A stretch of DNA of 64,000 nt from NCBI GenBank assembly GCA_949317995.1, contig OX439051.1:43031250-43095249 (forward strand). The letters run 5' to 3'. The notes under the pieces were generated by a model that worked only from the letters and a program-made list of their open reading frames with translations, did no database searches and was not told where the DNA came from. Shown here piece by piece: positions 1,058 through 28,615 of the stretch. This stretch comes from Acholoe squamosa. Its lineage: Eukaryota > Annelida > Polychaeta > Phyllodocida > Polynoidae. How positions within the stretch are numbered: the first letter of the stretch is position 1; each line of letters opens with the position of its first letter. A program made the position numbers and the translations under genes.

Positions 1058-1427
1058 TGTCAATGGACCATTCTGGGTATTATTATTATTATATTAAAAC
1101 CCAAGCTCTGCTCACGATCCATACTCAACAATGTCCTGCATTCCTCAACAGGAACCAGGATCCTTTAGTCACCACAAACACATCTCCTCCATGAGGCTCT
1201 GTGACATAATGTAGACGGATGTAATAACATTCCAATCATATCTACACCCACACAGCCCCGCTGGAGGATGTGGGGTCCACCTGTGATGCCATATTTGGAA
1301 TGAGAGAATATTTCACAATCTCCTCTCAATCCTCATCAATATGATTAACACACAGGTGGCAATCTCTCCCTATGACACGTGTCCCTATTTCATTGAGCCA
1401 CGTGTATAGAATATTTCACAACACTGC

Positions 1428-1470
1428 GAGCTGCTCAAGTCCTTCATATAAAAGGCAGCTTGAGCAGCTC
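1428..1470 (+). promoter_or_regulatory. LTR core promoter: TATA box in the loop of an inverted repeat
   Basis: TATAAAAG lies at 1447-1454. It is flanked by a perfect 12-base inverted repeat, GAGCTGCTCAAG at 1428-1439 and its reverse complement at 1459-1470. Transcription would be expected to start about 25-30 bases after the TATA box, which would define the U3/R border. The same arrangement occurs in the 3' LTR (TATA at 17224-17231). Two CACGTG boxes lie just upstream at about 1376 and 1399. Confidence 0.7.
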
Positions 1471-1611
1471 CCAATCATCTCTCCCAACTTACACCTTACA
1501 CCTATACCTAGAACCTACGACAGGTTGAGCTATAGGATCGGAGGCAGAGCTTAGATCTTGGCGAGTGTTATCATTGTTACCACCTTTATGAAACACTCAT
1601 GTCAGCTATGC

Positions 1612-1617
1612 AATAAA
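1612..1617 (+). terminator. Polyadenylation signal in the LTR
   Basis: AATAAA lies downstream of the TATA box and about 66 bases before the LTR end, as expected for the R region. The copy in the 3' LTR at 17389-17394 would be the functional one for the genomic RNA. Confidence 0.6.
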
Positions 1618-1683
1618 AGGATCAACTGAACTTCCCTGGATTCCGTGTACATTCACTTCACCACATGTAACCGTCCGTTGACA

Positions 1684-1735
1684 CGATGGTGGATGAACCC
1701 TCCAAGAATATCCCACTACCAACCTCTCATTAAAC
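1684..1735 (+). promoter_or_regulatory. Leader with candidate primer-binding site
   Basis: The sequence right after the 5' LTR contains TGGTGGATGAACCC from 1687, three bases past the LTR end. A PBS begins with TGG, the complement of the tRNA CCA tail. I cannot name the tRNA without matching it to a tRNA set. Confidence 0.4.
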
Positions 1736-2086
1736 ATGAGCAATAGTGAGACATCACCTAAGGAGCCAGCTTCAAAACAACGCACCTTTACATCACCTGG
1801 GCTAGACGCGCCCAACCAACCCACAAGTGATACTACACATCCCCTCCAGAGGCAAACTTCATCTCCAGACGCCCTGACATTGGATCCAGTTTTACCTATA
1901 GCACTGCAGGCCCACGTATTACAACCTCTGAAGTACCAGTGGACAATACTCAGAGCCATTTGTACCACGACCCACACCTGGAGGACAGAACACCAGAGCT
2001 TCAAGCCGCCCTCCAGGACATCACCCCCACACAACCTACAAGACCTAGGGCACCTGCATCTGCAGCACAAACTAACCCAGGTGTAA
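1736..2086 (+). pseudogene. gag: N-terminal gag ORF in another frame (broken gag start)
   Basis: This is the first ATG after the leader and opens 116 codons in frame 2, rich in Ser, Thr and Pro. The main gag frame (frame 1) is open from 1831 but has no ATG until about 2660, far inside the protein. The simplest reading is that gag begins at 1736 and a small indel somewhere between 1831 and about 1940 has shifted the frame in this copy. The alternatives are a programmed shift or a non-ATG start. I infer the link from overlap and composition only. Confidence 0.5.
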
Positions 2087-4524
2087 CTTCACATAAACTA
2101 CCAGTTTGTGAGGAGCCAGTGGTTGTGGAGACAGACTCTGACGCCTCCCTAGACGCTGATTACTGGAGAGACAGAATCGGATCAGCAGTTTCTAGGTGGA
2201 GAGCAGCCTATGAAAACGGTGTAGGCAGGGTTTCCAATAACGACTCTGGACACCCGGTAGGAGACAATCCAAACTTCTCACTCAACATTAATAGACTATT
2301 GGATGAGTGGCTTGACCCTACCGTTACCCAGCCAAACCAATACCAATCCACATCTGAAGAGGAGGACCTGTACCCCCCACCTGTATACACACCTACACAG
2401 CCACTTAGAACCAGGTCAGTGGACTCACCATCCAGACAAGGCTCTAGATTTAGAAGGAGGGCCCAATCAAGTTCACCTCTTAGAAGAAGAACCCCCACTG
2501 GTTACAGACTACTGAGAAGTGTGGACGGAGCTACAAGCAGATCTCATCTCGTAGCTACAACCCCGCTACTCAATAGAGGCAACAGGACGCCTTACAACTC
2601 ACCTCACCTTATCGGTTCACCTGAAGAAGATACTGAAGTAACCTTTCCCCGCCGACCCAATATGGCAATGTCCCGAGGCCAGCCCCCTCAGTATGACCAG
2701 GAGGACATGAGGAGAAGTCTTGTCAGGGACTGCACTAACGCTGTCAGTGAGTCTCTCTCTGAGCTATTAGCCAAACACGTGAGCACCCTATCCACTGAAA
2801 TTAAAAATCATGGACAAGAACACTCAGATCAGTTGGCTAGAGTACACCTCAGGTTAGATGACATGGAACGCTGGAAGGAGAATATGGAATGCAACACCGC
2901 CCACAACTTCAGGCAGGCAGAACAAGGCAATATGGAAGTCCTCAGAACATCCGAGGATTTCACATATCAAATGACTGACCAGCTAAGCAAAAACATGGAC
3001 TCAATGAGGCTTGACCTAATGAGGGCCATTCAAAGCCATTCCAACAGTGCCGACGCCACCAACCCCAACCAAACCGCCACCGGCGCCCAAGGCAATTCAG
3101 GGCATGCACAATCCACTCCTCCTTACCCCACGGCACCTGACTACAGCACCAGCCACAATGACATGACAGGAGCAGGGATGAGCCCACCACATGCCTTCAA
3201 AGACAACCAATACACAGCATCACACGCACTGCACCAATCCCCAACAGCTAGTGCACCAAACACCCACCAGGGGGCGACAACATCTTGTAACACAGCGCCT
3301 AATCCAAACCAACACGGTGGCCATGTGGTTAATGGTGTTTACAGTCCCCAAGGACAAACAAGCAACCACTCTGGACTACCATATCCTCCTAGGTATGATC
3401 ATATAGCACACTCCACACCGGTAGTGCACCAGGGAGGATACCATGGCGCTGAGTACACCAGATTTTCCCCTAGTAGAATGGACAGCGACAAGCTCACATC
3501 TGCCCAGTTAGGCTCATTCAACAAGCCTGAACCTTTTGATAAACCAACGCCCTACAGGTCTGCAGCAAAATTTCTGACTGAATTTAAGTTCTTCATAAGG
3601 AATGTGCATGCCAAGAGGCCTGACCTACATGCAACTTGCCTGTACACTTTTCTCAAAGGGAGGGCAGCTCAGTGGTTTTTCAGCAACATAATGGACAAAC
3701 CCATCATGCAAAACAATGACGCCGTCTATGAAGCTTTCTTGGCGAGATTTGGCACTCCCGACCTCAGTACCATCCTCAAGGGATACAGAGCCAGGAAACA
3801 AAAGCCAAATGAAACCACTGAAGACTACCTTGCAGACATGACCATGTTGTTGTCCAACAGCAGCCTGGACGAGGCTTCACAAGTGGACTACCTTGTAAAT
3901 GGCCTCAGACCCGAGCTGAAAAATGTTGTTGTAGCTAAGTCTCCCAAGACCTTGCTGGAAGCTGAACAATTAGCCATAAATCAAGAACTGAACCTCGAGG
4001 CCATAAAAATTGCTCAGAATAGCTCAGCAGAGTTATGTGCGGTAGGCTACAACAAGGATGACAACAGATCCAGAAAGGATAAATATCAGCGCGACCACAA
4101 GAAAGAAGACAGACTGCCCAGTAGTAACTACAACAAACAGTATGAAAATAAATTCAAAAACAGTTACAGAGGAAGGTCCAAGTCTTCAGACAGATCCAAT
4201 CCCAAGGACTACAGATCTAATTCCAAAAATAGATCCGACTATAAGTCCCCAGGAAGAGATAGGTCAAAAGACAGATCAGAACAAAGGTCAAGATCCTCCG
4301 ACAGCAACAAAAGTTTTGTCTTCATACCAGTTGCTGGACAGCCAAATAACAATAAAAATGTCTCCTTTATGGTCCCAGCTGACTTCACCATCCCAGACAA
4401 TTGGGTACAACAGTCATTGAAGAAATCCAGAGATCCAACTCCATGCAGGAACTACTCCAGAAGCCATTCAGGGTCTCAGTCTGAGGCCGACAATGACAGC
4501 CCCAATAACACACAAGATGAATAG
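1831..4524 (+). CDS. gag: Gag polyprotein, main frame
   Basis: Gag assembles the particle and binds the element RNA. From the first in-frame GTG at 1939 the frame encodes about 861 residues. Near residue 145 there is PPPVY, a PPxY-type late-budding motif. Residues about 250-360 are polar and helix-prone. Residues about 540-685 match the retrotransposon capsid (gag) domain, with 'GRAAQWFF' and 'DYLADM' patterns. Residues about 705-790 are rich in Arg, Ser, Lys and Asp. I see no CCHC zinc knuckle, so RNA binding probably uses the basic tail. The frame closes with TAG at 4522-4524. There is no ATG near the open-frame start, so the true N-terminus is uncertain. Confidence 0.8.
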   Translation, partial: YYTSPPEANFISRRPDIGSSFTYSTAGPRITTSEVPVDNTQSHLYHDPHLEDRTPELQAALQDITPTQPTRPRAPASAAQTNPGVTSHKLPVCEEPVVVETDSDASLDADYWRDRIGSAVSRWRAAYENGVGRVSNNDSGHPVGDNPNFSLNINRLLDEWLDPTVTQPNQYQSTSEEEDLYPPPVYTPTQPLRTRSVDSPSRQGSRFRRRAQSSSPLRRRTPTGYRLLRSVDGATSRSHLVATTPLLNRGNRTPYNSPHLIGSPEEDTEVTFPRRPNMAMSRGQPPQYDQEDMRRSLVRDCTNAVSESLSELLAKHVSTLSTEIKNHGQEHSDQLARVHLRLDDMERWKENMECNTAHNFRQAEQGNMEVLRTSEDFTYQMTDQLSKNMDSMRLDLMRAIQSHSNSADATNPNQTATGAQGNSGHAQSTPPYPTAPDYSTSHNDMTGAGMSPPHAFKDNQYTASHALHQSPTASAPNTHQGATTSCNTAPNPNQHGGHVVNGVYSPQGQTSNHSGLPYPPRYDHIAHSTPVVHQGGYHGAEYTRFSPSRMDSDKLTSAQLGSFNKPEPFDKPTPYRSAAKFLTEFKFFIRNVHAKRPDLHATCLYTFLKGRAAQWFFSNIMDKPIMQNNDAVYEAFLARFGTPDLSTILKGYRARKQKPNETTEDYLADMTMLLSNSSLDEASQVDYLVNGLRPELKNVVVAKSPKTLLEAEQLAINQELNLEAIKIAQNSSAELCAVGYNKDDNRSRKDKYQRDHKKEDRLPSSNYNKQYENKFKNSYRGRSKSSDRSNPKDYRSNSKNRSDYKSPGRDRSKDRSEQRSRSSDSNKSFVFIPVAGQPNNNKNVSFMVPADFTIPDNWVQQSLKKSRDPTPCRNYSRSHSGSQSEADNDSPNNTQDE

Positions 4525-4650
4525 GGATCAGGGGAAGGCACTCAAGCACCTAGTGACCCCGACCCCACCCGGACCACGACCATCAAATTATCCAAGGACA
4601 CTTCTCGAGATGCTGATGCAGAAATGAATTCAGTAGACTCCCAGTGATGA
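4522..4650 (+). promoter_or_regulatory. Gag-pol junction with suppressible-looking stops
   Basis: The gag TAG (4522-4524) is followed by a purine-rich GGATCAGGGG context. The same frame then stays open for 40 acidic codons to a double TGA at 4645-4650. The pol frame, +1 relative to gag, opens at 4637 and continues past this double stop. Expression of pol could therefore need TAG readthrough and a +1 shift at the TGA. Equally, this copy may carry a stop mutation and an indel. Confidence 0.35.
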
Positions 4651-7204
4651 CGAGGACGAGTATGAGGACCAGAGCCAGAGGACTTCAATCCTGAAACTGA
4701 GGATCAAATCCGAGCAGTATGGGCAGCAAGGTAAGGCCATTTACGTTGATACAGAATTAACCAAGGGTGCAGTTTCTGTAGACATAAATAACCACTTGTA
4801 TAGAGCTCTTGTTGACTCCGGCGCCTCACTTTCTTTTATTAGCCAAAAAATGGCCGACAAAATCGCGAACACTCCAAATTTCAGACACGGGAGACGCGCG
4901 CGACTGACAGTTTTATTGGCTGATAAAACCCCCATCCAAGTAAATCACTCCATGACTGTAACATTCCTCATTGGTGGCCATGAATTCAGATCCAGATTCC
5001 ATGTGGTACCTGAACTGAACCATCCCCTAATTTTAGGAGTAAACTTCATGACCAAATACAAAGCCAAAATTTCCTTTGGACCGACTCCCCCATCGCCCAA
5101 CTACATCAGGGCAAACAAAAATGTTGATATTCCACCAAACACTGAAGCCACTTTCAATGCGGTCGTGATGGGGAATAGCAACATTGTGGGAAAAACTGGA
5201 TTGACTGAGAACTCAGGTTCTACCCTACCGGTACTTATTAAGCACGCAATAGTTAAACCTAGATCAGACCTTAAAATAGTACCAGTAACAGTAGCTAACC
5301 CAAATGACTTCCCCATCAAGATAAAAAGACACATGAACCTCGGTGTACTTAGACTTTTCAACGTCAAAAAGGCTGTACCCATTGGTGCACTCAATAGCGC
5401 CCATTCACTCAACAGTGTAACAACAGAAAAGGACTTATTCCCAATCAATTGTGGAGAGGATCCCATGGACCAACTCCCCAAAGGGAATGAACCTTTGAAG
5501 TATAAAATCTGTGAAAAACTCTCTGAAATTCAAAGGCAACAGATCAAAAACATCGTTGAGGCCAATAGGCAAGCCTTTGTCCTAAATGAAAGCGCCATAG
5601 GTCTCAATGTAGAAAATGAGGTTAAACTGGAATTAAAACCAGACTTCAAACCCTGCAACAGACCGTCGTATAGGATGTCCCCTCACAAAGAAATTTTTCA
5701 AAGGGAACTCCTGAAAAAACATTTAGAACAGGGGATAATAGAAGAGTGTACCAAACCCTGTGAGTGGAACTCACCCGCCTTTTTAGTGCCGAAACCACAA
5801 GGTGACAGGTCAGTAGCCTCTGGTTGGAGAATTGTAGTTGACTACAGATGGGTAAATGAGAATTTAAAGACTTTCTCTTACTCATTCCCCAGAGCTGACG
5901 ACCTCATGCAGCAGATAGGCAGAACGGGCGCCAAATATTTTTCCAAATTGGATGTCTACAGCGCCTACCACCAGATTCCCCTAGCAGAAGAATTTAGGCC
6001 ACTTACCACTTTCTCTGCTAATGGCACGAGATACATGGCCAAAGTTCTCCCTATGGGACTCAAAACTTCAGGCCTATCTTTTATGAATGTAATGGAACAA
6101 CTCCTCATGAAATGCAAGTATAAAAATGCTGTAGCATATGTGGACGATGTGGCCATTTACAGCCCCACGTGGGAAAGGCACTTACAAGATCTGGACGAGG
6201 TTTTAAAACTTTTTATCAGAGGAAACATCAAACTGAAATCGGAAAAATGCGAATTTGGAACTACCAAAATGGAATTTTTGGGTTTCAATGTAGACCAGCA
6301 TGGTTTGTCACCATCCCCGGACAAAATAGGACCTGTCAAAACCTTCCTCCCACCTAAAAACATCCATGATCTTAGATGTTTCAATGGTATGGCGCAGTTT
6401 TACAAAAGGTTCATCAGAGGTTTTGCTCATGTCATGAAGCCCCTTTATGAGGCGACAAAAAGCACCTTTAAATGGACCATTGAGTGTCAGAGAGCCTTTG
6501 AAAAAATTAAAGCTGCTATCTGTACTGAAGCTGTGCTGAAATTCCCGGACTATAAGAGACCTTTTGTCATCTTCACCGACTCAAGCAACTACAGCTTAGG
6601 AGCTGTAATCACTCAGGTAGATGACTATGGTTTCTATAGACCGATTGAATTTGCAGGAAGAGGTTTGACACCTCAAGAGTCTAGGTATGGGATAACTGAT
6701 AAAGAACTGTTGGGAATAGTTTTTGCAGTCAAAAAGTTCCACCATTATGTGGATGGAACTCACTTCAAAGTATACTCGGACCACACCGCCCTGGTTTCCC
6801 TTTTCAACAAAAAGGAAAATATAACCAATGGAAGGTTAGCCAGGTGGGTCGACACAGTCATGTCCTACGACTTTGAAGTCAGGTACCTGCAAGGCAGAGC
6901 CAATATCGTGGCAGACTTTTTCTCCAGGAGGAAATATCCGCCCGGCTCTGATGACCCAATTCCAATCAGGTCTCAAGGTAAAATAATACTACCTCCTAAA
7001 TCAGTCAAATTCTCCGACATTACCATGACCAAAGTCTTCAAATCAAATGACCCAATTCCCAAAAATCCAGTCCTCATGGGACCACCTAGGTCCATACTAA
7101 AAGGAGGACAGATTTGGGGTAGCACTTCCAAGAAGCCAAAGGGTGTGATTGCCAAGAAAGGTAGCTCTGAGAGAGAAAAACTGTGCCCGAGCTGTGCATT
7201 TTAA
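4637..7204 (+). CDS. pol: Pol: protease, reverse transcriptase and RNase H
   Basis: This frame makes the enzymes that mature the particle and copy RNA into DNA. It has no ATG at its start, as expected for a fusion with gag; the TTG at 4796 is only a convenient reference. Counting from there, the aspartic protease motif DSGA is at residues 8-11. RT follows, with 'KLDVYSAYHQ' and the catalytic YVDD near 448-451. RNase H then follows, with 'IFTDSS' near 593, 'DKELLG' and 'VYSDH'. The last roughly 90 residues are a basic, Pro-rich linker. The frame closes with TAA just inside the overlap with the integrase frame. All catalytic motifs I can check are intact. Confidence 0.9.
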   Translation, partial: TPSDDEDEYEDQSQRTSILKLRIKSEQYGQQGKAIYVDTELTKGAVSVDINNHLYRALVDSGASLSFISQKMADKIANTPNFRHGRRARLTVLLADKTPIQVNHSMTVTFLIGGHEFRSRFHVVPELNHPLILGVNFMTKYKAKISFGPTPPSPNYIRANKNVDIPPNTEATFNAVVMGNSNIVGKTGLTENSGSTLPVLIKHAIVKPRSDLKIVPVTVANPNDFPIKIKRHMNLGVLRLFNVKKAVPIGALNSAHSLNSVTTEKDLFPINCGEDPMDQLPKGNEPLKYKICEKLSEIQRQQIKNIVEANRQAFVLNESAIGLNVENEVKLELKPDFKPCNRPSYRMSPHKEIFQRELLKKHLEQGIIEECTKPCEWNSPAFLVPKPQGDRSVASGWRIVVDYRWVNENLKTFSYSFPRADDLMQQIGRTGAKYFSKLDVYSAYHQIPLAEEFRPLTTFSANGTRYMAKVLPMGLKTSGLSFMNVMEQLLMKCKYKNAVAYVDDVAIYSPTWERHLQDLDEVLKLFIRGNIKLKSEKCEFGTTKMEFLGFNVDQHGLSPSPDKIGPVKTFLPPKNIHDLRCFNGMAQFYKRFIRGFAHVMKPLYEATKSTFKWTIECQRAFEKIKAAICTEAVLKFPDYKRPFVIFTDSSNYSLGAVITQVDDYGFYRPIEFAGRGLTPQESRYGITDKELLGIVFAVKKFHHYVDGTHFKVYSDHTALVSLFNKKENITNGRLARWVDTVMSYDFEVRYLQGRANIVADFFSRRKYPPGSDDPIPIRSQGKIILPPKSVKFSDITMTKVFKSNDPIPKNPVLMGPPRSILKGGQIWGSTSKKPKGVIAKKGSSEREKLCPSCAF

Positions 7205-8142
7205 CTCGATCTAAAGCCAAGTTACCAGACCTAGCCACACCCCCTCAGCCCAGCAAATCAACCAGAAGTAAACAGACCCGCCCCACTAAGGTCAAGGACA
7301 CCAAGACCAAAACAAGGGGCCGACCACCAAAATCTAGGTCACCCAGAGTATCAGTGAAATTAGCTAATACCAGAAGGGCTAAGCTATCACACAAAGTGCT
7401 ACCCATGGCTGAACGAGCGATAAGCCAGCTATGTAAACACCACTCCCTAACCCCATCCAGGGAGACACTGATACAGGCACAGCAGGAGGATGTTTTCTCA
7501 AACTCCATGCTGTCATACATCAATAAGGGTGAATTACCAGAGGACCCCAGCCTTAGCAAACAGATACTGCTAAACCATGACCAGTTCATGATTTTATACG
7601 AAGTTTTATTCAGGATCACCAAATCAACCTATGGAGACAGTTTAGAGCCTACACTACAAATAGTGATACCAGAAAAATGGGCAGAATCACTAATTGAGGC
7701 CACACACTGCTCACCATTAGGAGGACACCTTGGTCCCACTAAAACATATGCAGCAATCAGATCCAGGTATTATTGGCGTTCCATGTTCAAACATGTTTTC
7801 GACTACTGTGGCACTTGCCACACATGTCTCACAACAAAGAAAAGACCAAAACACCTGAGAACCCCAATGACCCTGAGAGACCCTGTCTTAACGGCCTACA
7901 CTCACCTTACCATGGACACCATCGGTCCTTTCACACCTGCTGTGGATGGATCCTCATTTATCCATGTTGTCACAGATCATGCTACCAGGCACATCACTGT
8001 TTGGGCCACAAAGGATAACACCAGCGCCGAAGTAGCGCTAGGATTTTTCCAAAGGGTTATTTGTGTTTTTGGAACCCCATCAGTCCTGAACACAGATAAC
8101 GCACAACAGTATGTGTCCCAAATATTTTACATCTTTTTGTGA
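7171..8142 (+). pseudogene. pol: Integrase N-terminal part, shifted frame
   Basis: Integrase inserts the DNA copy into the host genome. This frame lies -1 relative to the RT frame. It is open from 7171 and overlaps the RT frame by 34 bases. Its first coding choice is a GTG at 7183, so it has no proper start of its own. It begins with a basic linker carrying RGRPPK, an AT-hook-like motif. The zinc-binding HHCC follows (H..H in 'THCSPLGGHLG', C..C in 'CGTCHTC'), then two of the three catalytic acidic residues ('TMDTIGP' and 'NTDNAQQ'). The frame ends at TGA 8140-8142, before the third catalytic residue. Confidence 0.8.
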
Positions 8143-8956
8143 CAAATTCGGCATCAAACATGTGACAGGGAGTGCACATTGGTCAAAATCACAAGGTCTA
8201 TGTGAGCGTCAACATCAAACAATAGAATCTTCACTCAGAGCCTTTGTCTCCAAATCACAGAAACATTGGTCGACTTTCCTACAGGCTATAGCATTCAGTA
8301 TAAACAACACTGTATGCAGCATGCTAGGATACTCACCCAGTCTTTTAGTATTTGGAAAACAAACACATCTCCCAACTGAGTCCTCCCTCTCATTGGTCCA
8401 ACAAACTGAAGAGATCAAAGACAAGGAAAAATTGGTTACCGCCTTACTCAGTCTAAGAGATGACATCCAACTTAAGGCAGCCGAGAGCATGGTCAAATAC
8501 CATAAAAAGATGAAAGCCAGACATGACGCCACTGCTTCTCCATGCACCTACAACACAGGTCAGCTTGTGTATTTACACATACCTAACCTGTTGGTCAAAC
8601 AAACGAGCAAAAAGCTGCAGGCCACCTATAGTGGACCATATATCATAATGAAAATGACCTCACCAGTAACTGCAAAATTAAAAAGGCTACAGGATGGTAA
8701 AGTATTGAAAAAATCAATACATGTATCTAGATTAAGGAGACCAATCACCAAGGCTAGCGCCAAGGCTGTGATCAAAAGACTGCAGTCTGGGCCAGTTAAC
8801 ACCTTGTATGACCCTGATCTAGATTCCACCCACATTGGTGAACCAGAATCCCCTGCAGTCAAAAAGAAAAGAGGACGACCTGCAAAGAAAGGACTTGTCA
8901 CCTTTGCCCCTTCCCCAAAAAAGAAGACAAAGAAGAAGTCCACAAAAAAGAAGTAG
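8111..8956 (+). pseudogene. pol: Integrase C-terminal part, after a frame break
   Basis: This frame overlaps the preceding one and continues the integrase fold with 'GSAHWSKSQGLCERQHQ', which carries the catalytic Glu. A C-terminal beta-rich module follows ('YSGPYII...VSRLRRP'). The tail is very Lys-rich and includes RGRPAKK, a second AT-hook-like motif. The break lies between about 8128 and 8142, in a T-rich run, and separates the second Asp from the Glu. It would inactivate integrase unless bypassed. I see no chromodomain. Confidence 0.8.
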
Positions 8957-9897
8957 ATTTTCAGAAAACACACAATCCTTTTTTTTTTTTTTCTTCTTCT
9001 CTCTCCCCCCCCAAAAACACCCACCTTAACCCCCCCACATTCACACACACCTCTCCACCTTCACCTCCAACCGGTGGCAGTTTTGGCCATGTGTTATTTC
9101 ATGCAATGATGTTATTCCCCACAAATTTTCTTTTTCTCATCATTTATGTTTCTTTTTTTTATTTTTTTTTTATCATCCAAACCACATACCAATTACCTTT
9201 AACATCAAAATTTCTACACAAACCCCAAAAGGCCTTCTGGCTTACTTTTACTGATGGGACATTGTCAAGAATTTTATCTAGGGTTTGAGACTCAGACAGT
9301 CATATAATGATTGATTAAGGTTGGCACGCCACATAAATTACCCAAGGTCACAGCGTATTCTCGGTTCGTGGATCCTAATCTTAGGAACACGCATGCGCCG
9401 GTTTGTTACAAGCTCAGGGCTCCTCTATACCCTAAAGTATTACCAAATGACCACCTATTGTAGGAGAGCAGCACCTAGACATCCTGATCCGTGTTTATGC
9501 CTCTGTTTACCATCAGTACTGGAATGTTTGGTGAGACACTTAATCAAAATATTCAGCACAGCTCCCTGCTGTGTTATCACAACAGGAACAAGTGCACCCC
9601 GGCAGGCTGACTTATCTCAGCACCACAACCATCAACCCCCCTTTCATAACTACAATATTCAGATCATCCAATGATCATCCGCACCCCATAAAGGTCCATT
9701 AAATTTGCATATCACGATGATCAGGTGTATGCAAACCAACCAATAGCTAGGCCCCGTGCCACATATGGGTGAGACATACCTTATCGGGAGGCATGTAATG
9801 AGGAATTAGCCAACCTCATGAAGTGCTTATAAGCCTCACACCACCCCCACCTTAACCACTCTTATCAAATACACCAAACTCACCACATCCAGCCACT
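8957..9897 (+). other. Non-coding spacer after pol, with a candidate internal promoter
   Basis: Poly-T and poly-pyrimidine runs (8980-9010, 9150-9175) follow the pol stop. No domain-bearing ORF is visible. CTTATAAG at 9826-9833, about 65 bases before the ATG of the next gene, could be a TATA box for an internal promoter. Confidence 0.4.
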
Positions 9898-9959
9898 ATG
9901 GAGCAAGCATCCGGAGACCACAGGACCCAAGTGTCGGGACTGCCATGCAACAAGCCCAG
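9898..9959 (+). CDS. Accessory protein, exon 1 (predicted)
   Basis: ATG at 9898 opens 20 codons plus two bases and meets a good donor, CCCAG|GTAGGA. Read straight through, the frame would stop at once (TAG at 9961-9963), which favours splicing. Spliced to the acceptor at 10252, the reading frame continues exactly into the next ORF. A TATA-like box lies about 65 bases upstream. The alternative is that this is a short leader exon of an LTR-driven mRNA. Confidence 0.5.
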
Positions 9960-10252
9960 GTAGGATCGGTCTTATGTGTCCATTAGTAGCGTCATCAATC
10001 GTTCTAGCATGACTATGATGGAATCTACCATCATGTTGCCCAGATACCCATTACATGCCAATGGTAGTGTGCGCCCAGAGCGCTTTGTAAAATGCAATAG
10101 TTGAATTTGCAGTCCTTTTCAAAACCATGTATGGCAGCCTGACCTTTCATTACCTTAGTTATCAACCTCTTGACAAAACCCCCCATCAGCCCATTCATCT
10201 ATCTTAGTCAAACAACAAACCTATCAAACCTTTTTCTTATTATTCACAACAG

Positions 10253-10736
10253 CCTTAGAGCCCCAGAAGTTAGACATGGAGCCAACTCAGGGTGGACCAT
10301 CCACAGTCTTTTAGGCCCAAACGGCATCAAAAGTAAGGCCATGGATCTGTTCGAGATCAGAATAACTATCATGGAGCACAAAGACATGATCAAACGTATA
10401 TCCAGCGAAGACTTCGGTGTATACCTAAACAACAAAACAGTTCAAAAAGAGCTCACCTTACAAGACCCAATTGTATTATCGGCCACCAAGGCCATGATAT
10501 TCGACCTATGCAAAGATTTCCCCACAGTCCCATTGTGGGACAGATTCAGTGAGGAAACATCAAGCTATATAGCACTCCTATGTGCCAGAACTCTGATTAC
10601 CTCAGAGAAACCACTTAAAGAGCTACCAAGATATGAAACAGGTATTGGCAGATACAATGTCATAATCCAATCAACAAATCTTCAGACCCAGCTGGCAGCG
10701 TTTGAGATGGCTAGATACTCCCACTTACACAGTTAA
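10253..10736 (+). CDS. Accessory protein, exon 2 (predicted)
   Basis: The acceptor ttattattcacaacag| has a pyrimidine-rich tract. The exon joins exon 1 in phase and runs 161 further codons to TAA at 10734-10736, giving a protein of about 181 residues. It has no signal peptide or membrane segment and no motif I recognise; the composition is mixed, with many Leu, Ile, Thr and Glu. It lies between pol and env, where complex retroviruses keep regulatory genes such as vif or tat, but nothing shows a shared function. The open frame extends upstream of 10253, but that part would be intron. Confidence 0.5.
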
Positions 10737-11146
10737 AAGCTATCAGCCCTGAATTGACCCATTTCTCCCCCCCCTACACATGTACAACATTAATAATCAA
10801 TTACTTTCCTTCAATTCTTTTTTTTTCTCTCTTCTCACTAGAATTTTTTTTTTCTTTACATGACTAAGATGGAGACATCCTTGCTAGTTAAGATATCAGC
10901 CTAGCACCCTGATAACCTTTTAAATAACACGCCCCAAAGCGCCACATTCACACCGCACACAACCAAGCGACCCCCCCCATATGTATAGGACACCCACCGC
11001 CCAATCTACACAAACATACCTCACACAAAGCCAACTCCCCAACCCAAAACCCTTAAAAAAAAATGACCCATCTCACCCCGGACAACAGTCCTATCTCAGT
11101 CTCATATAATCCTTTTTCTCATAAGCTTATCTAAATTTCTATTTTT
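10737..11146 (+). other. Spacer between accessory gene and env-like gene
   Basis: AT- and pyrimidine-rich, with T runs near 10818 and 10845 and no supported ORF. It ends in a good splice acceptor, 'ctaaatttctatttttag' with AG at 11147-11148, two bases before the env-like ATG. A spliced subgenomic env mRNA would use it. Confidence 0.5.
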
Positions 11147-11149
11147 AGG

Positions 11150-11329
11150 ATGGCAGCCTGCTTGGCAGCACTCTTCCTAATTATGTGCGCCCAGACCCAA
11201 CAGTCAGGAGCACAGGATTTTGTAACCAAAGAAGAGACCATCTTCAGGCCAAACTATGGTGTTCTATTCACTAAAATACCCCAGAAAATGATCTCAGGAT
11301 ATATGGATTACCCATTAGTTTTCGCTTAA
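11150..11329 (+). pseudogene. env: Env-like protein, signal-peptide segment, ended by an in-frame stop
   Basis: ATG at 11150 follows a splice acceptor by one base. The first 20 residues form a clear signal peptide ('AACLAALFLIMCAQT'), which would direct the product to the secretory pathway. The frame stops at TAA 11327-11329, but the very same frame is open again from 11330 to 11773. The TAA therefore looks like a nonsense mutation in this copy, not a natural end. Confidence 0.65.
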
Positions 11330-11773
11330 GACCTATCCTTCAATCAATCCTTGCAGCGACCGGACAAATTAACCTCCCTAGTCAGCAAAAATGCCCCAAA
11401 TTTTATCTTGGAAACCACCCAAACTTTAGACCTAATTTTGGCAAATCTCTACCAAAAATCTCAAAAATCTTTAGCCCTGTTAATAAAATTTTTGGAACAT
11501 CCCCAAACGAGAACACCCAGAGGCGCCCCAGGACAGATCGTAGGCGATATTTTAAGAGCATCAATTGGCTTGAGCACGCAACCTGAAGTAGACTTGTTGA
11601 ATTCCGAAATGTCCGACTTAGAGAAAACCCTAGCTACTAAAATGCATGTGGTAGAATTAGCCACACATTTTCTCTTGAACATTTCTGAATTTAATTATCA
11701 ATCTCTGAGCACCTTCTCCAGCATGCAAAATAACACGGATGACGCCTTGGCCCTGCTCAGTTCCAACTCTTGA
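11330..11773 (+). pseudogene. env: Env-like protein, helical N-terminal ectodomain segment
   Basis: This segment continues the frame of the signal-peptide segment after its stop. It is rich in Leu, Asn and Ser, with heptad-like spacing ('TLDLILANLYQ', 'SLALLIKFL') typical of coiled coils in class I fusion glycoproteins. It has NxS/T sites such as NIS and NNT. It ends at TGA 11771-11773, where the next frame (11770 onward) takes over with no spacer. An indel close to 11765 probably separates them. The family call rests on the next segment. Confidence 0.55.
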
Positions 11774-13863
11774 GTAAGAATGTATCAAATATCTTATTCA
11801 ACCTGGAACAACAGAGCAGACAAGACACCTATCATTCGATGTTATTCACCGCTGCTAACTCTCAGATTGAAGTACTAATGAACCTGCAAAATGATTTAGA
11901 CATCCTTCTGGACTCACTAACCACTCTAACGGAAGGTGAGCTACCTCCAAAATTAATTCCCCATAAAGTTATGGAAGATGGACTTAATAATCTATCAAGC
12001 TCCTTGTATGAAGCCAATAAGGGTATCACTATTCTTAATGTACCCACCGGTTTCTATTACAAAAGGAGAGTGCACGTGCACTGGCAGAACCAAAACAAAC
12101 TTTACATCACAGTGCCTATACCCATAGGACTGGGAGACAACATCTACTCCATATATAGAGCGGAGGCCTTCCCAGTCCCATTTGACACCACCAATGTAAA
12201 CACTACTGGGTTTACACAGATACAGCCTTTGCCTAATTATATAGCTATGTCTGTGTCCCAGTCACACTACATTGAACTGGACCACTCCGACTTAGATCTT
12301 TGTGACGTAGATGTTTTTATAACATGCAACCTGCCCCTGCCCATGTTATCTCCTAGGTACCCCACCTGCAGCTTATCCCTATTTTTAGATCTACCTGACG
12401 CTGTACATAACACCTGCAATTTTCGAGCACACATGACAGCACCAATTCCCAACATTGCTAAACCCATCTCCCAAAGCTCCTACATGCTGATCACTAGTTT
12501 TTCACCTTCAATAATGCAATGCTCAAACTCAGGCCAAATCGAGATCAAAAATGCAGCCTACTCTATTATTTCAGTGCCATGCCTCTGTTCTCTTAAAAAC
12601 AGAGGCACGATAATGATTAATTCCGATCTATCCTGCGCCCAAAACTTTACTCTAGAACCCATTGCCAAAGTGCCTGTCAATTTACCACTATGGCGGCATT
12701 TTGGTAACCCGCCAAACAACATATCAGGAGTAACCATAGCAACCACCCCGACCCACCTAGACCTACCAAATTTTCAGCGCCTAAAGCGCCTTCACAACCA
12801 AAAATTTCTACCCCTATTTAAGGACATTTTGAACCTAAAAGGCGCTGCCACCAAAATTCATGATAAGTCATCCATCCTGAGCACCAACTCACTCATACAT
12901 CTAGGATATCACCTGGAGTTTTCCCCTTGGTTACACCTGTTGTCGCCAACCATTGCAATCTTGTGCTGCCTGGTCACGTGTCGTGTACACATGCGCGTGG
13001 CATACTTAGCCCAATTAGTGACCATTCACAGTCGAACAACGATGGCTGACGCAGCATCTTGGAACAAGCTTAAAGAAATGATTAAGAACACCAACCAAAA
13101 TTGGCCTACGCGGACCACACCCCAGGAGATCACTACACCTGACTGGATTCAGATGCCAGGAAGGTATGATTCCATGATTGCCTTCCTAGGCATCATCCTC
13201 AGCTTGCTATTCATCAAAGCGGCGGGGAGACGCTGTCTTAGGCATTGGCCCTACGGCAGACAGGACCCCGCCCCCGGCACCCCAAGATTCGTGCTGAAGA
13301 TACACTCTGGAGGGCACACATATGCCTTTCCAGTGGGACTAATGGTGTATGGAAGGAACCTCTGGCCAGCATCCATCTTGGCACCCAAACTAGCACCACC
13401 CAGGTTAACTTTCCCCCTAGCCCGTCATCTTGATGCGCATTGGAAGTCAGACGTCGGAATGATCATTGGTGGAAGACTGAGGACGGTGAGGCTGGAGAGA
13501 TACCCCAGTTGCCCTTTGCTCTGGCGCATCCCCCTCACAATCATCCTCAGATCCAGACCCCACACGGTCACCCTGGCGATTGTACAGGAAAACCAGCCTG
13601 ACTTCCAACTCACACCAAGTGAATATGAACTATCAGCCAGCTACAAACCAGTGCCACCTTTGACACGGAGAAAAGACCTACTCAGGCGGGGAGCCCCTAA
13701 GGCCTCCACCAGTGGGACAACTCTAGCAGAGATGGCCCTGCTACAACTCAGGGAAACCCAGCCACCTAAGGACCTATACTTATTCGACCCTACACTGGCT
13801 GAGAGGGCCATTGACACCATGGATGGTAGGTTTTTAAATTTTAAAACCATTAGTTTCGGCTGA
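11770..13863 (+). pseudogene. env: Env-like glycoprotein, main segment (F-like type)
   Basis: The frame encodes 697 residues, opening with a coiled-coil-like stretch. A Cys-rich ectodomain follows, with 'LYITVPIPIG', 'AEAFPVPF' and 'LPNYIAMS' patterns. These resemble the envelope shared by errantiviruses and baculovirus F proteins. Hydrophobic segments lie near residues 387-405 ('LSPTIAILCCLV') and 468-486 ('MIAFLGIILSLLFIKAAG'). About 210 residues follow the second one as a long basic, Pro-rich tail, unusual for an env cytoplasmic tail. I see no obvious furin site. Two breaks upstream mean that this copy cannot express a full-length protein. The role in membrane fusion is inferred from family resemblance. 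Confidence 0.6.
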
Positions 13864-15172
13864 TGTGGGGATCGTTGAGAACGCTCAGCATCCTCAGCGA
13901 CCTCCACCGGCCACCCCCGAGGTTCCTCCCATAATGGACTCTCCCCAGCGCCCACAAGCCCGGTGACAACACTGGACGGTACCACCACCCTTATGTGGGG
14001 ATGGCAGGTGCTGAACAGCGCTACATAGCAGACCGGATAGCCCTGAGACGCTGATGTGGGGATCCCCTTCCTATCCGGCAAATCCCCGAGACCCCCCCAA
14101 GGACCCCCTATAGGGCCCCATCCCGACCTAAATACATAAAACCATGCCCACAAATCGCAATATCCCGCCATTGTTTCACCTTGCACATCACTAGATCTTA
14201 TCAATGATGACGCAAGACCTTTCCACAACCATAGACGCAGTCACAACGTCTGCACAAAATTTTCGCGCCAGTCGCGACCCGGCGTCGCCATTTTTAAAGA
14301 GCTTCGTGATATGCAAATATCCATTAAGTTTCGGTCACATGATCGTTCTGACTTGATACATAGACTGAAAACAACAACATCAACACGTGCAAACAACCTA
14401 GCTTCATGATAAAAAGGATTACTCACGTCTCTTCTAAAACCCGTTCACTGCCGGCACCTGAGGCGCCAGCAGTAGGTAGGTGACCTGATGTATCCTACAA
14501 AAACAAATCCAAAATTGAAATTACCAAAAAGCCCGAAACAAATTTCGCAATTCAAAATTTTCCAAAATAAATTCACACGCCCACTTATTCAAAATTACTA
14601 ACGTCCCGTCCACGTTGATGAATACTGTAATCAACAGCGCACGACCATCCGGAAAATGGAGAACGCCTTGGACGATCTCCATCTTGCGTAACTACTGATA
14701 AGATAGCCGGCACCCATATCTTATATAGGGCCAAGGCTAAAGGCATCAAAACTCAAAATTTATTTCAAATCCGCGACCCCCCACCCTCAAAATTCAAATA
14801 GCATACCGTATGCCGGAATGCCAAAACTCAAACCTTCTTCGAGACCTTTCGACCACCTTCATGAAATTTTAGGCCACGATTCGAAATATTTTTCAGGATT
14901 TTTATCTGAATAATCAGGTTCAGCACGGTGAAGCGACAGCTCGGTACTGCCACCCAGTGTGATACAAATTAACCAACTAAGCTTGCTTAGTTACACTTAC
15001 CGCGTTCTGTTCTTACAATCAAATTGAGCTCTGTCAAGATTAATATTATGTGTCGAACAGCAGAAATTTATAGCACTTATTGGTTATCCTGTATTGACAA
15101 GGCCACCAGCTGACCAAGCAGGATCTTACACCTCTGTTAATGGTTTGTTTTTCACGGCTCTCTTCCCTACAG
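13864..15172 (+). other. Post-env region without a supported ORF
   Basis: ATGTGGGGAT occurs three times (13863-13872, 13993-14002, 14054-14063), matching the motif right before the 3' LTR (16800-16809). The rest is AC-rich, with a TATA-like 'tcttatataggg' near 14721 and a direct TCTTAT repeat. A splice acceptor 'ctcttccctacag' ends at 15172. The antisense ORF at 13641-14228 looks like a shadow of env. Confidence 0.45.
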
Positions 15173-15387
15173 ACCCCTCCTCTGGAGACCTGGCAGCCCC
15201 ACCATCCGTCGGCCCTCCAGCCCTGGAGACAGAAGAGCCGGGGCAATCATCATCAAGGAAGGCGACAGGAGGAAGAGGCAGGAGGGAAGAGGTCAGGCAA
15301 AATCCAACCCCACCAGCCGCGGACCCCGAGCCCCAGCAGCAACTTCCACCAGCCAGTGGAGGGAGCCAGCTAGAAAGCCCCATCTAA
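15173..15387 (+). CDS. Candidate 3' accessory exon, Pro/Arg-rich
   Basis: After a good acceptor, two frames are open. One gives a Pro- and Gln-rich product ending at 15387; the other, ending at 15373, gives a product with 'GRRQEEEAGGKRSGK'. Either could be a second exon of a small spliced protein. I do not recognise it, and low-complexity composition alone could keep both frames open. Confidence 0.25.
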
Positions 15388-15402
15388 CACCCAGGGGAAC
15401 CT

Positions 15403-15702
15403 ATGTGTCGGCAGCCTGCAGGCCTGGCACACCCAGGCCCCCAACCTACAGGCACAACAACAACTATTGCTGCCACATCAATGGGCAGGTATCCGCTGCC
15501 AAACTTTGCATACCTTGTTACCATTAACCAAATGGGTTCCTGTGCCCTTGTGCTTATGACAACAAACCTAGGCCAAGCGGTAACAGACAGAGATCCCCGC
15601 CGAGAACCATGTGGAAACCCATGCCAGCTCGACCCACCCCTACCACAGAGACAGATACCACCTCAGAGGACAGATCAGATGTGGCCACAGCTGGTGACTT
15701 AG
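15403..15702 (+). CDS. Candidate small ORF, 99 codons
   Basis: The ORF starts at an ATG and is rich in Pro, Thr and Gln. It has no recognisable domain. It overlaps the following ORF in another frame, so at most one of the two is likely to be coding. Confidence 0.2.
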   Translation: MCRQPAGLAHPGPQPTGTTTTIAATSMGRYPLPNFAYLVTINQMGSCALVLMTTNLGQAVTDRDPRREPCGNPCQLDPPLPQRQIPPQRTDQMWPQLVT

Positions 15703-15872
15703 CATCAGTATACTTAGACTTTTCCGACATTACCATCTCAAAATTCAGACCCATCAGATCCAGGACCCATCGTAAGGCTGAAGGCAGGTTCAAGAATTTC
15801 AACATCAAAGAACATCAGAACCTACCTCCAAACAGCATTCACCCCAATCGACATTTCAGAACACACAAATAG
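15609..15872 (+). CDS. Candidate small ORF with FSDIT motif
   Basis: ATG-started, 87 codons, basic at the C-terminus. It contains 'FSDITISK', similar to 'FSDITMTK' in the linker after RNase H near 7011-7037. The underlying DNA shares 'tccgacattaccat' at both sites. It could be a duplicated pol-linker piece or an independent basic protein. Confidence 0.3.
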   Translation: MWKPMPARPTPTTETDTTSEDRSDVATAGDLASVYLDFSDITISKFRPIRSRTHRKAEGRFKNFNIKEHQNLPPNSIHPNRHFRTHK

Positions 15873-16795
15873 ACATTTCACAGACTCAATTTTTGTACTA
15901 CCTAGCCTTGAAGACACATTTATAAACAACCCCCCACGCCTATACGTATTACTTGTTCTCTGAGAATGTAAAATCTTTTTTTTCCCTCAGCATGTCAAAT
16001 CTTTTTCACTGGATTCTTTAAAAAGCCTGTTTTTCTTTAGGCCAATGTATATATTAACTTAAGATTCTTTTCCTTCGATGAACATTATGAGACTAAGACC
16101 AAAATGGCCTTCTGGTTTACCTCTAGGCGCTATAAAGTTCATCACCTTCACCATTGTTTTACTTTCAAGCTCAACTATGACATGTATTTATGAGTTTTAG
16201 TCAAATTAGTTACCCATAATCAACAGGTTGTATACATAACATTTTTGTATATTTTCATGAGAATTACCATGTTCTAGTCAACAGTAAAACTAAATACTAC
16301 CTTGACTCATACCGTATACCCGACTGTGCAGCAGACCCTACACAACCTCAGCTATGAGCCTTGGTAATGTGGAGCCAAAGACTCATCACCCTTGTGTTGA
16401 TTGTTGACCCCACAATACCAAGAATCACCAAACTTGGTTAATTTTCATCTGGATATACTTCATTGCGTATTATTGCATAAAACCAACATGTTATCAAATC
16501 AGAAAATTTTTTTTTTCCCACGATAACATACCGGTACATTTATATTTTAAGCATTGTACATATCCTGGCATTTAGAACCTGTATATATATACATTAAGTC
16601 ACTTGATCCACACAAAAACTTTATTTTTGTAATTCCATAAAGGAACCTTTGTTTATACTGCATATAATGTCAAACCCATCAGGTTTTTCACAAAACCCAG
16701 TATTTGCATAATAACACCCATAATCGTCAATGGACTTGGCAGAGCCTCATCTTTTCTACTTATTTTTCTCCCTTTACACTCGTGCAGAGACGAGT
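15873..16795 (+). other. AT-rich 3' untranslated region of the large element
   Basis: No ORF with features. Long T runs (15977, 16508) and many ATAT stretches. It contains one phrase, 'ccaaaatggccttctggttta', reminiscent of 'caaaaggccttctggctta' near 9227, which may be a repeated internal segment. Confidence 0.5.
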
Positions 16796-16810
16796 AGGAA
16801 TGTGGGGATT
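16796..16810 (+). promoter_or_regulatory. Polypurine-tract region before the 3' LTR
   Basis: The bases right before the LTR are AGGAATGTGGGGATT, mostly purine and G-rich. This is the expected place for the plus-strand primer. Confidence 0.55.
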
Positions 16811-17460
16811 TGTCAATGGACCATTCTGGGTATTATTATTATTTTTCATATTTACTAATTTCTTCGCCATATAAAACCCAAGCTCTGCTCACGATCCATA
16901 CTCAACAATGTCCTGCATTCCTCAACAGGAACCAGGATCCTTTAGTCACCACAAACACATCTCCTCCATGAGGCTCTGTGACATAATGTAGACGGATGTA
17001 ATAACATTCCAATCATATCTACACCCACACAGCCCCGCTGGAGGATGTGGGGTCCACCTGTGATGCCATATTTGGAATGAGAGAATATTTCACAATCTCC
17101 TCTCAATCCTCATCAATATGATTAACACACAGGTGGCAATCTCTCCCTATGACACATGTCCCTATTTCATTGAGCCACGTGTATAGAATATTTCACAACA
17201 CTGCGAGCTGCTCAAGTCCTTCATATAAAAGGCAGCTTGAGCAGCTCCCAATCATCTCTCCCAACTTACACCTTACACCTATACCTAGAACCTACGACAG
17301 GTTGAGCTATAGGATCGGAGGCAGAGCTTAGATCTTGGTGAGTGTTATCATTGTTACCACCTTTATGAAACACTCATGTCAGCTATGCAATAAAAGGATC
17401 AACTGAACTTCCCTGGATTCCGTGTACATTCACTTCACCACATGTAACCGTCCGTTGACA
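16811..17460 (+). repeat. 3' LTR of the large element
   Basis: 650 bases, TGTCAATGG...GTTGACA. It keeps a 24-base stretch ending in a TATAAAA-like 'catataaaaccc' that the 5' LTR lacks. It carries the same TATA-in-hairpin (17224-17231) and AATAAA (17389-17394). Confidence 0.95.
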
Positions 17461-23459: not shown

Positions 23460-23504
23460 ACCACAATCTCCCGTGTATAAGGCGCGTCTTATACGCAAAC
23501 AGAT
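23460..23504. repeat. MITE family B, left part, cut by the Mag-like element
   Basis: 'accacaatctcccgtgtata' is the family B terminus. The copy is interrupted at 'cagat' and resumes at 28777. Confidence 0.75.
23500..23504. repeat. Target-site duplication, left
   Basis: CAGAT, repeated at 28777-28781 right after the 3' LTR; a 5-base duplication is typical of Ty3/Gypsy integration. Confidence 0.9.
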
Positions 23505-23665
23505 TGTAGTATCGTTATCCGGTAGTCACGGCGGGAAAAGCAAATCATAAATATATACCGAGACACCAGAAGTGACCCACATGCCGCAACACCACGTTTT
23601 TCAGAACAACTTCTCAATGTAAAAACTACCAAAATAAAGCCATCAACCAACCATCAAATGTTACA
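23505..23665 (+). repeat. 5' LTR of the Mag-like element
   Basis: TGTAGTATCG...ATGTTACA, 161 bases. AATAAA at 23633-23638. 'aaatatatacc' near 23550 may be the TATA box. Confidence 0.95.
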
Positions 23666-23666
23666 T

Positions 23667-23680
23667 TGGCAACGAGGAAA
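23667..23680 (+). promoter_or_regulatory. Candidate primer-binding site
   Basis: TGGCAACGAGG begins two bases after the LTR end. The matching tRNA is not identified. Confidence 0.5.
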
Positions 23681-23963
23681 TAGGAATGACACTGACAATT
23701 GTAGGTACAGCCCCACAGACCTGAAAATATCACCATTCTAGTGAAAATCACCTTGGGAAGTTGAATGACCTAGATCTGTCCCAAACCAATAGTGTCACTG
23801 TTGTAGCAATCATCTGCTAGTCACCCAAGACATCTGTCAGTCACCCTAAACTGTGGAACAACTTGTTGTAGTGCACATATTGACTCACTATTGCTATACC
23901 AGCATAACCTATACCAGGTAGAACAGTTGATATATACCCAGTGCATACCCACCACAAGTCACC

Positions 23964-24923
23964 ATGGCAATGGCCTTAGCAAATACCATGTCCCTGTTCC
24001 CCCAGTTTGACCTAACTGACAGAGCTTCCATTGCACCACGCTGGAAGAAGTACATCAAAAGGTTTGAGATCCGAGCCAAATCCCTTAAAATCGATGACCC
24101 TGAGGCTAAATTAAATCTGTTACTAGACTATGCAGGAGAAGCAGTCTCTGATGAATTTAAACTTATCACAGTTGCCCCGGCAGTACCAAATGCCAATAAT
24201 CAGGACCTTTATACGCGTTCACTCAAGGGGCTCAATGATCACTTCTCACCCCAAGTAGATATTGAGTTTGAATGGTACAACTTTGTAGAAGCCGTTCAGG
24301 ATAAGGACGAAACCCTTGACGTTTATGTTGCCCGACTGAAGCATCTAGCGCTAACCTGCGATTTTCATGACAAAGATGCTGAAATCAAATCACAGATTAT
24401 CCGTAAAGGGAAGTCATCAAAACTTCGAACCTGGTCACTTGCACAAACCCGCACCTTGAAAGACGTTATCGATCATGGTACGGCGATGGAACGCTCGATC
24501 CGTCAGTCCAAAACCATCGAGAAAGAGACCGTCAATAAACTGTCATCTGCTAAACCACAAATTCAAGGTCAAGGTCAAGGTCACGGTGATGGTAACCGTT
24601 GTGGTAGGCGTGATGACCGCAACCACAACAGCAACCAGCGAAGTAACCAGAAAAAGTCAACGTCTGACAAGCCACCGAACAACGAGTGCGGACTCTGTGG
24701 AGGTCCATACCCGCATGAAGGGGGCCGTGAAAATTGCCCTGCCTTCAGTTCGACCTGCCATAACTGCGGTATCATCGGACATTTTGCAAAAAAGTGTGGC
24801 AAGAGAGACCAACCATCTCAGCGAGGTCGCAGCTCCCACCGAGGACGTGTACGACCGGTTCACAATGTAGAGGAAGCTGCCGGTTTCACCCAGCAAGAAC
24901 CGGTGAGCAACCTGACATGGTGA
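23964..24923 (+). CDS. gag: Gag of the Mag-like element
   Basis: 319 residues from a good ATG (caccATGG) about 300 bases after the LTR. Residues 1-170 are the capsid-type gag domain ('FVEAVQDKDETLDVYVARLKH'-like helices). A basic Gln/Gly-rich linker follows. Two Cys clusters come next: 'CGLCGGPYPHEGGRENC', then a classic CCHC knuckle 'CHNCGIIGHFAKKC' near residues 264-277, which binds RNA. The frame ends in TGA at 24921-24923, but continues open in the same frame into pol. Confidence 0.92.
   Translation: MAMALANTMSLFPQFDLTDRASIAPRWKKYIKRFEIRAKSLKIDDPEAKLNLLLDYAGEAVSDEFKLITVAPAVPNANNQDLYTRSLKGLNDHFSPQVDIEFEWYNFVEAVQDKDETLDVYVARLKHLALTCDFHDKDAEIKSQIIRKGKSSKLRTWSLAQTRTLKDVIDHGTAMERSIRQSKTIEKETVNKLSSAKPQIQGQGQGHGDGNRCGRRDDRNHNSNQRSNQKKSTSDKPPNNECGLCGGPYPHEGGRENCPAFSSTCHNCGIIGHFAKKCGKRDQPSQRGRSSHRGRVRPVHNVEEAAGFTQQEPVSNLTW
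24921..24923 (+). promoter_or_regulatory. In-frame TGA between gag and pol
   Basis: Gag and pol share frame 3. No other stop lies between 23964 and 28061. The 75 bases after the TGA encode an acidic linker before the first pol ATG at 24999. It is either a readthrough site, like gammaretroviral gag-pol, or a point mutation, for example from CGA, TGG or TGC. Confidence 0.5.
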
Positions 24924-24998
24924 GATGAACTCAACGCTGAGGAAGACCATTATGTATTCTCACTTACTACACCTGTCAGCACCATACAGCCAATATTC

Positions 24999-28061: not shown

Positions 28062-28083
28062 TACTTAGCGGAAAACTATGTGC

Positions 28084-28599: not shown

Positions 28600-28615
28600 C
28601 TAAGGTTGGGAGGAG
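28600..28615 (+). promoter_or_regulatory. Polypurine tract of the Mag-like element
   Basis: AAGGTTGGGAGGAG lies directly before the 3' LTR. It is G/A-rich, as needed for plus-strand priming. Confidence 0.75.

Follow-up and report, generated by a model that had tools for sequence, protein, structure and literature searches.

Positions 1,058 to 17,460 of a 64,000-nucleotide stretch from the polynoid annelid Acholoe squamosa (NCBI GenBank assembly GCA_949317995.1, contig OX439051.1, forward-strand positions 43,031,250 to 43,095,249; the whole stretch is referred to here as the window) are best explained as an endogenous, env-carrying Ty3/gypsy (Metaviridae-type) element of ~16.5 kb, present in many copies and carrying five genes in the order gag-pol-acc1-env-acc2, a reading that we hold with a probability of roughly 0.82. 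The 16.4-kb size is intrinsic to the element, because other copies hold the same extra regions in the same order. Its reverse transcriptase (RT) is, by sequence, Ty3-like and not retroviral, its env is under purifying selection, and so, as judged from comparisons between copies, are the predicted exons of two accessory genes, acc1 and acc2.

Copies were sought in a genome of 1,481,437,319 bases in 63 contigs, in which the window is C17:43031250-43095249. The searches score the best candidates only, so their counts set a lower limit to the number of copies and say nothing about the rate of matching. Two subfamilies are compared: A, to which the window copy belongs, and its sister B, ~9% diverged in DNA. 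Nine B loci were picked from the list of acc1 exon 2 matches; the eight compared are L090-L098 without L096, the tandem locus L089 being left out. Selection is expressed as the ratio of nonsynonymous to synonymous differences per site (pN/pS), and P0001 is a protein homologous to env. The features of the element are the following.

1058-17460, + strand: whole element, 16,403 bp, boundaries exact
1058-1683, + strand: 5' long terminal repeat (LTR), 626 bp, from LTR comparison and genome-wide LTR matches
1831-4524, + strand: gag open reading frame (ORF), stop to stop, with a basic, RS-rich C-terminus and a Ty3_capsid match
4637-7204, + strand: pol part 1, aspartic protease (PR), RT and RNase H (RH), good domain matches
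7171-8956, + strand: pol part 2, integrase (IN; H2C2, rve, SH3-type end), in two frames in the window copy (7171-8142 and 8090-8956)
9827-9833, + strand: TATA-like box upstream of acc1, identical in 18 of 19 copies of A and in all eight of B
9898-9959, + strand: predicted acc1 exon 1, which includes the start codon and is followed by the donor GT at 9960, near-invariant between subfamilies
10253-10736, + strand: predicted acc1 exon 2, 160 codons, acceptor AG at 10251-10252, in phase with exon 1 and backed by pN/pS
11150-13863, + strand: env, its exon running from 11149 after acceptor AG 11147-11148, from domain match, homologue and selection
11510-11521, + strand: RxxR site, then a Gly-containing stretch
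12931-12987, + strand: first hydrophobic transmembrane (TM)-like segment of env, also in P0001
13159-13860, + strand: second TM-like segment of env (13159-13215) and long tail, with a P0001 counterpart 32% identical
13863-14063, + strand: three copies of ATGTGGGGAT after env (at 13863, 13993 and 14054), the same 10-mer as the 3' polypurine-tract core
14656-14687, + strand: predicted acc2 exon 1, which includes the start codon and is followed by the donor GT at 14688, near-invariant between subfamilies
15173-15872, + strand: predicted acc2 exon 2, frame 0, acceptor AG 15171-15172, from pN/pS and a stop confined to the window copy
16800-16809, + strand: 3' polypurine-tract core ATGTGGGGAT, adjoining the 3' LTR
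16811-17460, + strand: 3' LTR, 650 bp, on the same basis as the 5' LTR

Gag, Pol and an F-like Env

The LTRs, gag and PR-RT-RH-IN that a first-pass annotation had read from the letters alone are borne out by LTR alignment and domain matches, the gag match to Ty3_capsid being weak (E-value 1.5e-5, below the Pfam cut-off). The pol order PR-RT-RH-IN is that of Ty3/gypsy (Metaviridae). Compared with relatives that have one long pol frame, the window copy has frame changes between RNase H and integrase and within integrase. At 4522-4640 the gag frame stays open beyond the gag stop, and pol begins in another frame; an RNA hairpin was sought after the gag stop, and the fold was not significant (z 0.42).

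Among solved structures the nearest RT is that of Ty3 (227 bits), and the next chains, at 136, 102 and then 84-88 bits, are presumably caulimovirus-type, foamy-type and p80-type. Placing the RT in a tree, as the first-pass annotation had proposed, sets it among Ty3-like RTs: in a tree of 60 rows, which are without named errantiviruses and whose long outgroup branches were flagged by the tool, the window RT and five relatives (52-78% identical) form a clade with support 100/99. Both the tree and the descending order of the structural matches thus fail to bear out a kinship with Retroviridae. Scans of viral contigs with pol, env and a pol alignment, and a scan of genome contigs, gave nothing useful.

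As to the claim of an F-like env, env resembles the baculovirus F protein weakly but repeatedly in its sequence. The window ORF from 11743 matches Baculo_F with an E-value of 7e-6, just above the Pfam cut-off; the env part of two other copies matches at 9e-6, above it, and at 7e-5, below it; and 366-residue parts of env match at 1-2e-6. P0001 is the one env homologue found in the protein collection (best 7991 candidates scored), being 36% identical over 86% of the env query; it has the long tail and the two TM-like segments in common with env, and all 8 cysteines of the ectodomain. The RxxR motif at 11510-11521 and the stretch that follows it are presumably a furin-type site and a fusion-peptide-like segment. 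Purifying selection on env is evident within A, with pN/pS of 0.16-0.38 by part, and between A and B, with 0.13-0.65 by part over a range that reaches up to 12939.

Several observations weigh against this reading of env. The Baculo_F matches lie near the cut-off (22-28 bits, the cut-off being 24.1), the full 911-residue env scanned whole gave no Baculo_F match, apparently through a filter effect, and P0001 has no Pfam match of its own. Structure models of env and of the tail are poor, with predicted local distance difference test (pLDDT) values of 29.5 and 35.3. Env is open in 10 of 19 rows over 11150-11740 and in 10 of 21 rows over 11776-13860, and the start codon at 11150 occurs in 17 of 19 A and none of 8 B copies. 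In the window copy itself, env is interrupted by an in-frame stop at 11327-11329 and shifts frame near 11750; of two other copies inspected, one carries env as a single open frame of 911 residues. A PDB search with the env alignment returned nothing informative.

The part of env past the first TM segment invites a separate explanation. This part, ~290 residues long, contains a second TM-like segment, and P0001 has a counterpart to it; so long a two-TM tail is unusual for F-type Env. That it is a separate cleaved protein or a fused sixth gene, and not a cytoplasmic tail, is an idea to be kept in view, though unlikely, as the tail stays in the same frame as env both here and in P0001.

The acceptor AG at 11147-11148 is present in all 19 A and all eight B copies. 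In fly elements, env is reported to be expressed from a spliced RNA, with the Env start codon coming from an upstream exon (PMC12992720). Since the start codon at 11150 is absent in B, an upstream exon may supply the Env start codon here as well, by analogy with the fly elements.

Two predicted split accessory genes

Comparison of the subfamilies upholds, as a prediction, the spliced accessory gene that had been claimed between pol and env (acc1); a second one (acc2), which the first-pass annotation missed, lies in the 2.9 kb after env. Around acc1, A and B differ at 9.7% of nucleotides immediately before exon 1 and at 0.2% within it; the intron differs by 5.2%, exon 2 by 3.3% and the sequence past exon 2 by 14.8%. 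Around acc2, where the B rows were fetched at extrapolated places (8 of 8 loci), the corresponding values are 14.8% immediately before exon 1, 0.8% for exon 1 itself and 6.3% for the intron. In acc1 exon 2 the pN/pS between A and B is 0.18, 67% of the differences fall at third codon positions, and the eight B rows are free of stops and indels; for the open sequence immediately preceding the acceptor, the pN/pS is 1.17 and there are 8 indel events. The core of acc2 exon 2 (15390-15869, frame 0) has a pN/pS of 0.08, 75% of differences at third positions and no indels in the eight B rows, with values of 2.4 and 1.5 in the other two frames, and within A the pN/pS over 15528-15869 is 0.17. The acc1 start codon is found in all 19 A and all eight B copies; for acc2 the counts are 18 of 19 and 6 of 8. 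All 20 A and all eight B copies have GT and AG at the ends of both introns, and each junction preserves the reading frame. A protein search of the genome with acc1 exon 2 scored the best 150 of 1934 candidates, all at 94-100% identity and 139 of them without stops.

The product of acc2 would have distinctive features. Exon 2 opens with a basic stretch (17 K/R in 72 codons), in which a four-residue basic run at 15267-15278 is K/R in all rows read. A Cys/His cluster follows, whose eight positions (15453-15549) are conserved in 19 or all 20 of the A copies and in all eight B copies; a ninth Cys, at 15471, is found in the window copy only, as is an in-frame stop at 15525-15527 (0 of 20 other copies). 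The final 59 codons are 98-100% identical. The basic patch and the cluster are reminiscent of retroviral transactivators or export proteins. The roles of acc1 and acc2 are guesses, because neither matched anything in Pfam or PHROGs, nor below an E-value of 0.3 in the PDB.

This lack of matches counts against the two genes, and it does not stand alone. The splice junctions were drawn from sequence comparison, and two-letter splice sites are often kept regardless (median identity 0.95-1.0); the exon contrasts therefore carry the argument. Within A alone the pN/pS of acc1 is 0.56-0.69, with no clear coding signal, and the N-terminal part of acc2 exon 2 (15174-15386) is weaker than the core, at 0.49. 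Exon 2 is open in 15 of 21 rows for acc1 and 13 of 21 for acc2, many copies being broken among the rows examined, and codon usage did not discriminate coding from non-coding sequence.

Exon 1 of acc1 is near-frozen between subfamilies even at synonymous sites, beyond what protein constraint alone would give, perhaps reflecting an RNA signal. The TATA-like box at 9827-9833 is a possible internal promoter of acc1. Other gene structures were tried and rejected: an ORF at 9315-9671 as a gene, and an overlapping, tat/rev-like start for acc2, given that its ATG at 14618 is present in 10 of 19 copies and that frame 1 of exon 2 has a pN/pS of 2.37 between A and B. The LTR was also considered and rejected as the site of a canonical GT splice donor, since 14 of 20 other LTRs have GC at that position and 6 of 20 lack a pattern match.

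It is improbable that acc1 and acc2 are transduced host genes, serving host mimicry and not viral regulation. Their introns are a feature shared with host genes, and the searches turned up a viral homologue for neither, acc1 being without a match in a large protein collection. Introns would equally fit spliced viral mRNAs, and the best 150 genome matches of acc1 are all near-identical to it, although a diverged host gene could hide below them. Still less can be said for the notion that the additional sequence is lengthy untranslated or regulatory DNA with ORFs arising by chance, which we regard as very improbable. Shuffled sequences reach the length of the post-env ORF in 31% of cases, so that it is not unusual, and that of the mildly unusual acc1 ORF in 1.5%; codon usage does not discriminate; and much of both regions (e.g., 14.0-14.6 and 15.9-16.8 kb) evolves like non-coding DNA. 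However, chance ORFs do not account for the concentration of differences at third positions in one frame only, nor for the B rows free of indels and stops, which argue for selected accessory genes.

Length of the element and state of its copies

The 2.9 kb described after env by the first-pass annotation recur elsewhere: this region is present in all of the best 40 loci scored of 1087 candidates, 35 of them as a single full-length match (34 besides the window, 92-98% identity). The pol-env spacer is matched in the best 40 scored of 1542 candidates, and an env piece in the best 40 of 1597. In 22 of the 40 listed env matches, the end of env is the exact start of a listed post-env match, each list being the best 40; the other 18 allow no statement on abutment. 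A search with the LTR as query, which had been proposed for finding other copies, gave 13 matched LTR pairs among the best 40 LTR loci, nine spanning 15.2-16.7 kb (window included), three spanning 24.7-34.4 kb and one 6.6 kb. Subfamily B is colinear with ~7.9-13 kb of the window, most loci being 90-92% identical to it, and the post-env region is present in all eight B loci at places extrapolated from this colinearity. The GC skew of the element is -0.10 to -0.57 by part and runs on through the extra region; elsewhere, in 78 overlapping intervals almost wholly outside both gypsy elements of the window, it has a mean of -0.01, a standard deviation of 0.08 and a lowest value of -0.27.

The first-pass annotation had allowed that other copies might lack the 9-17 kb part and that this would then be a nested insertion. 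The true element would in that case be an ordinary errantivirus-like unit of 8-9 kb, a view favored by the size itself and by the three longest LTR pairs, which do hold additional sequence, but which we reject as having next to no chance: colinear copies in both A and B carry the extra region, in the same order and abutting env across many independent insertions, the element's strand skew continues through it, and an internal repeat analysis found no nested LTR and no terminal inverted repeats.

A B-type locus, L089 (C7:48390500-48400000), has a 3.34-kb segment equivalent to window positions 7787-11159 (integrase to env acceptor) in tandem, at ~99.5% identity, with at least two full units, part of a third and no LTR between them. 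A similar doubling seems present at C18:50667571-50675183.

The extent of 1058-17460 given at first proved exact. The LTRs of the window copy have TG...CA ends and are 2 substitutions and 24 gapped columns apart, the 5' LTR being 24 bp short of its own 3' LTR and of the other full-length LTR matches listed (~649 bp). In ten other copies the LTR pairs differ at 0-4 of 649 sites, and insertion was therefore recent. Nine of ten other copies have an exact 4-bp target duplication, as judged by eye after a one-base shift of the printed 3' edge; TG...CA ends and duplications of this length agree with the TG...CA ends and 4-6 bp duplications of Ty3/gypsy elements. The flanks of the window copy, TCAT and GCAT, match at three of four bases and form no exact 4-bp duplication, which fits recombination between copies and is no proof of it. 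The window copy is young by its LTRs, yet defective, with pol, env and acc2 interrupted despite the near-identical LTRs; assembly errors may be an alternative source of these interruptions. A tRNA search identified no primer tRNA, and an Rfam scan was uninformative.

The 10-mer ATGTGGGGAT occurs four times in the 64 kb, always on the same strand and inside the 16-kb element, three of the copies sitting within ~200 bp of the env stop. Counted after the motif had already been noticed, the expectation is 0.30, and none of 100 shuffles reaches four; if one mismatch is tolerated, the motif is no commoner than expected (7 occurrences, 7.0 expected). Of the three motifs after env, the first and third are each conserved in all 20 A and all eight B copies of the element and the second in 17 A and 7 B copies, the first being scored over nine of ten bases in one of the comparisons; the mean identity of 10-mers near them is 0.71 among A copies. 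They might act as extra plus-strand primers.

Relation to known elements and other features of the window

Gypsy and errantivirus elements are usually 5-9 kb long with at most one extra gene. The present element, at ~16.5 kb, differs from errantiviruses and env-carrying gypsy elements (gypsy, ZAM, springer and metazoan relatives) in its length, in its two predicted extra two-exon genes, in the long two-TM env tail and in the repeated polypurine-tract motifs. The likenesses are the Ty3-like pol, with 4-bp target duplications here, and an F-type Env related to baculovirus F and reportedly made in flies from spliced RNA (PMC12992720). A published set of metazoan errantiviruses comprises 289 representatives (PMC13172572). 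The plant Retand elements are likewise Gypsy elements with a long internal region between pol and the 3' LTR; they are a plant lineage, and an animal F-type env is not among the features described in the available part of that source (PMC11963269). Troyka is also an animal LTR element and has CG...CG ends and 3-bp duplications, in contrast to TG...CA and 4 bp here (PMC12440569). The literature covered, comprising titles and the beginnings of abstracts with the survey of Chary and Hayashi 2025 (eLife) outside it, yielded no animal gypsy element with two split accessory genes.

That the layout recalls complex retroviruses holds for the gene order gag-pol-accessory-env-accessory with predicted split accessory genes; it does not extend to kinship with Retroviridae, the RT being Ty3-like. 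Lentiviruses, foamy viruses and deltaretroviruses share split accessory genes around and after env, a possible internal promoter and a basic, Cys/His-rich product; they differ in RT, and no sequence homology to their accessory proteins was detected. The resemblance would thus be one of analogy, with splicing of the accessory genes predicted from sequence. It can be suggested, tentatively and against the odds, that the element represents an invertebrate lineage of complex metaviruses, in which the full regulatory layout of a complex retrovirus evolved independently of Retroviridae: a pair of spliced accessory genes, of which one would encode a regulator with a basic patch and a Cys/His cluster, a possible internal promoter ahead of acc1, and four identical polypurine tracts at which plus-strand DNA would start in several places along an unusually long genome.

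In such an element, the LTR promoter, or for acc1 the internal TATA box, would drive genomic RNA together with spliced mRNAs that encode acc1, env and acc2. Reverse transcription and integration would be the work of Gag-Pol particles, and an F-type Env could mediate fusion of particles with other cells and thereby passage between cells or into the germ line. With its basic patch and Cys/His cluster, acc2 might be a nuclear RNA- or DNA-binding regulator in the style of retroviral transactivators or export proteins, acc1 might have some accessory role, and the repeated polypurine tracts might aid plus-strand synthesis of a long genome. Complex gene regulation is regarded as a hallmark of some vertebrate retroviruses; if true, two selected split accessory genes in an env-carrying Ty3/gypsy element would mean that the same solution had arisen outside Retroviridae, a question open to testing because the family is young, multi-copy and naturally divided into subfamilies.

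Elsewhere in the window, a second gypsy element of ~5.3 kb lies at 23502-28776, with 164-bp LTRs 98.8% identical, a gag with a CCHC knuckle, an open pol of 1045 residues and an RT far from that of the 16-kb element. An ORF at 29486-29986 (- strand) has a sub-threshold NADAR match (E-value 3.5e-5), and an endonuclease-like fragment at 43066-43632, whose matches lie just under the Pfam cut-off, is probably derived from an element of the long interspersed nuclear element (LINE) type. Tandem arrays with periods of ~65 and 76 bp, 95-99% alike, occupy 48928-49316 and 51169-51619.

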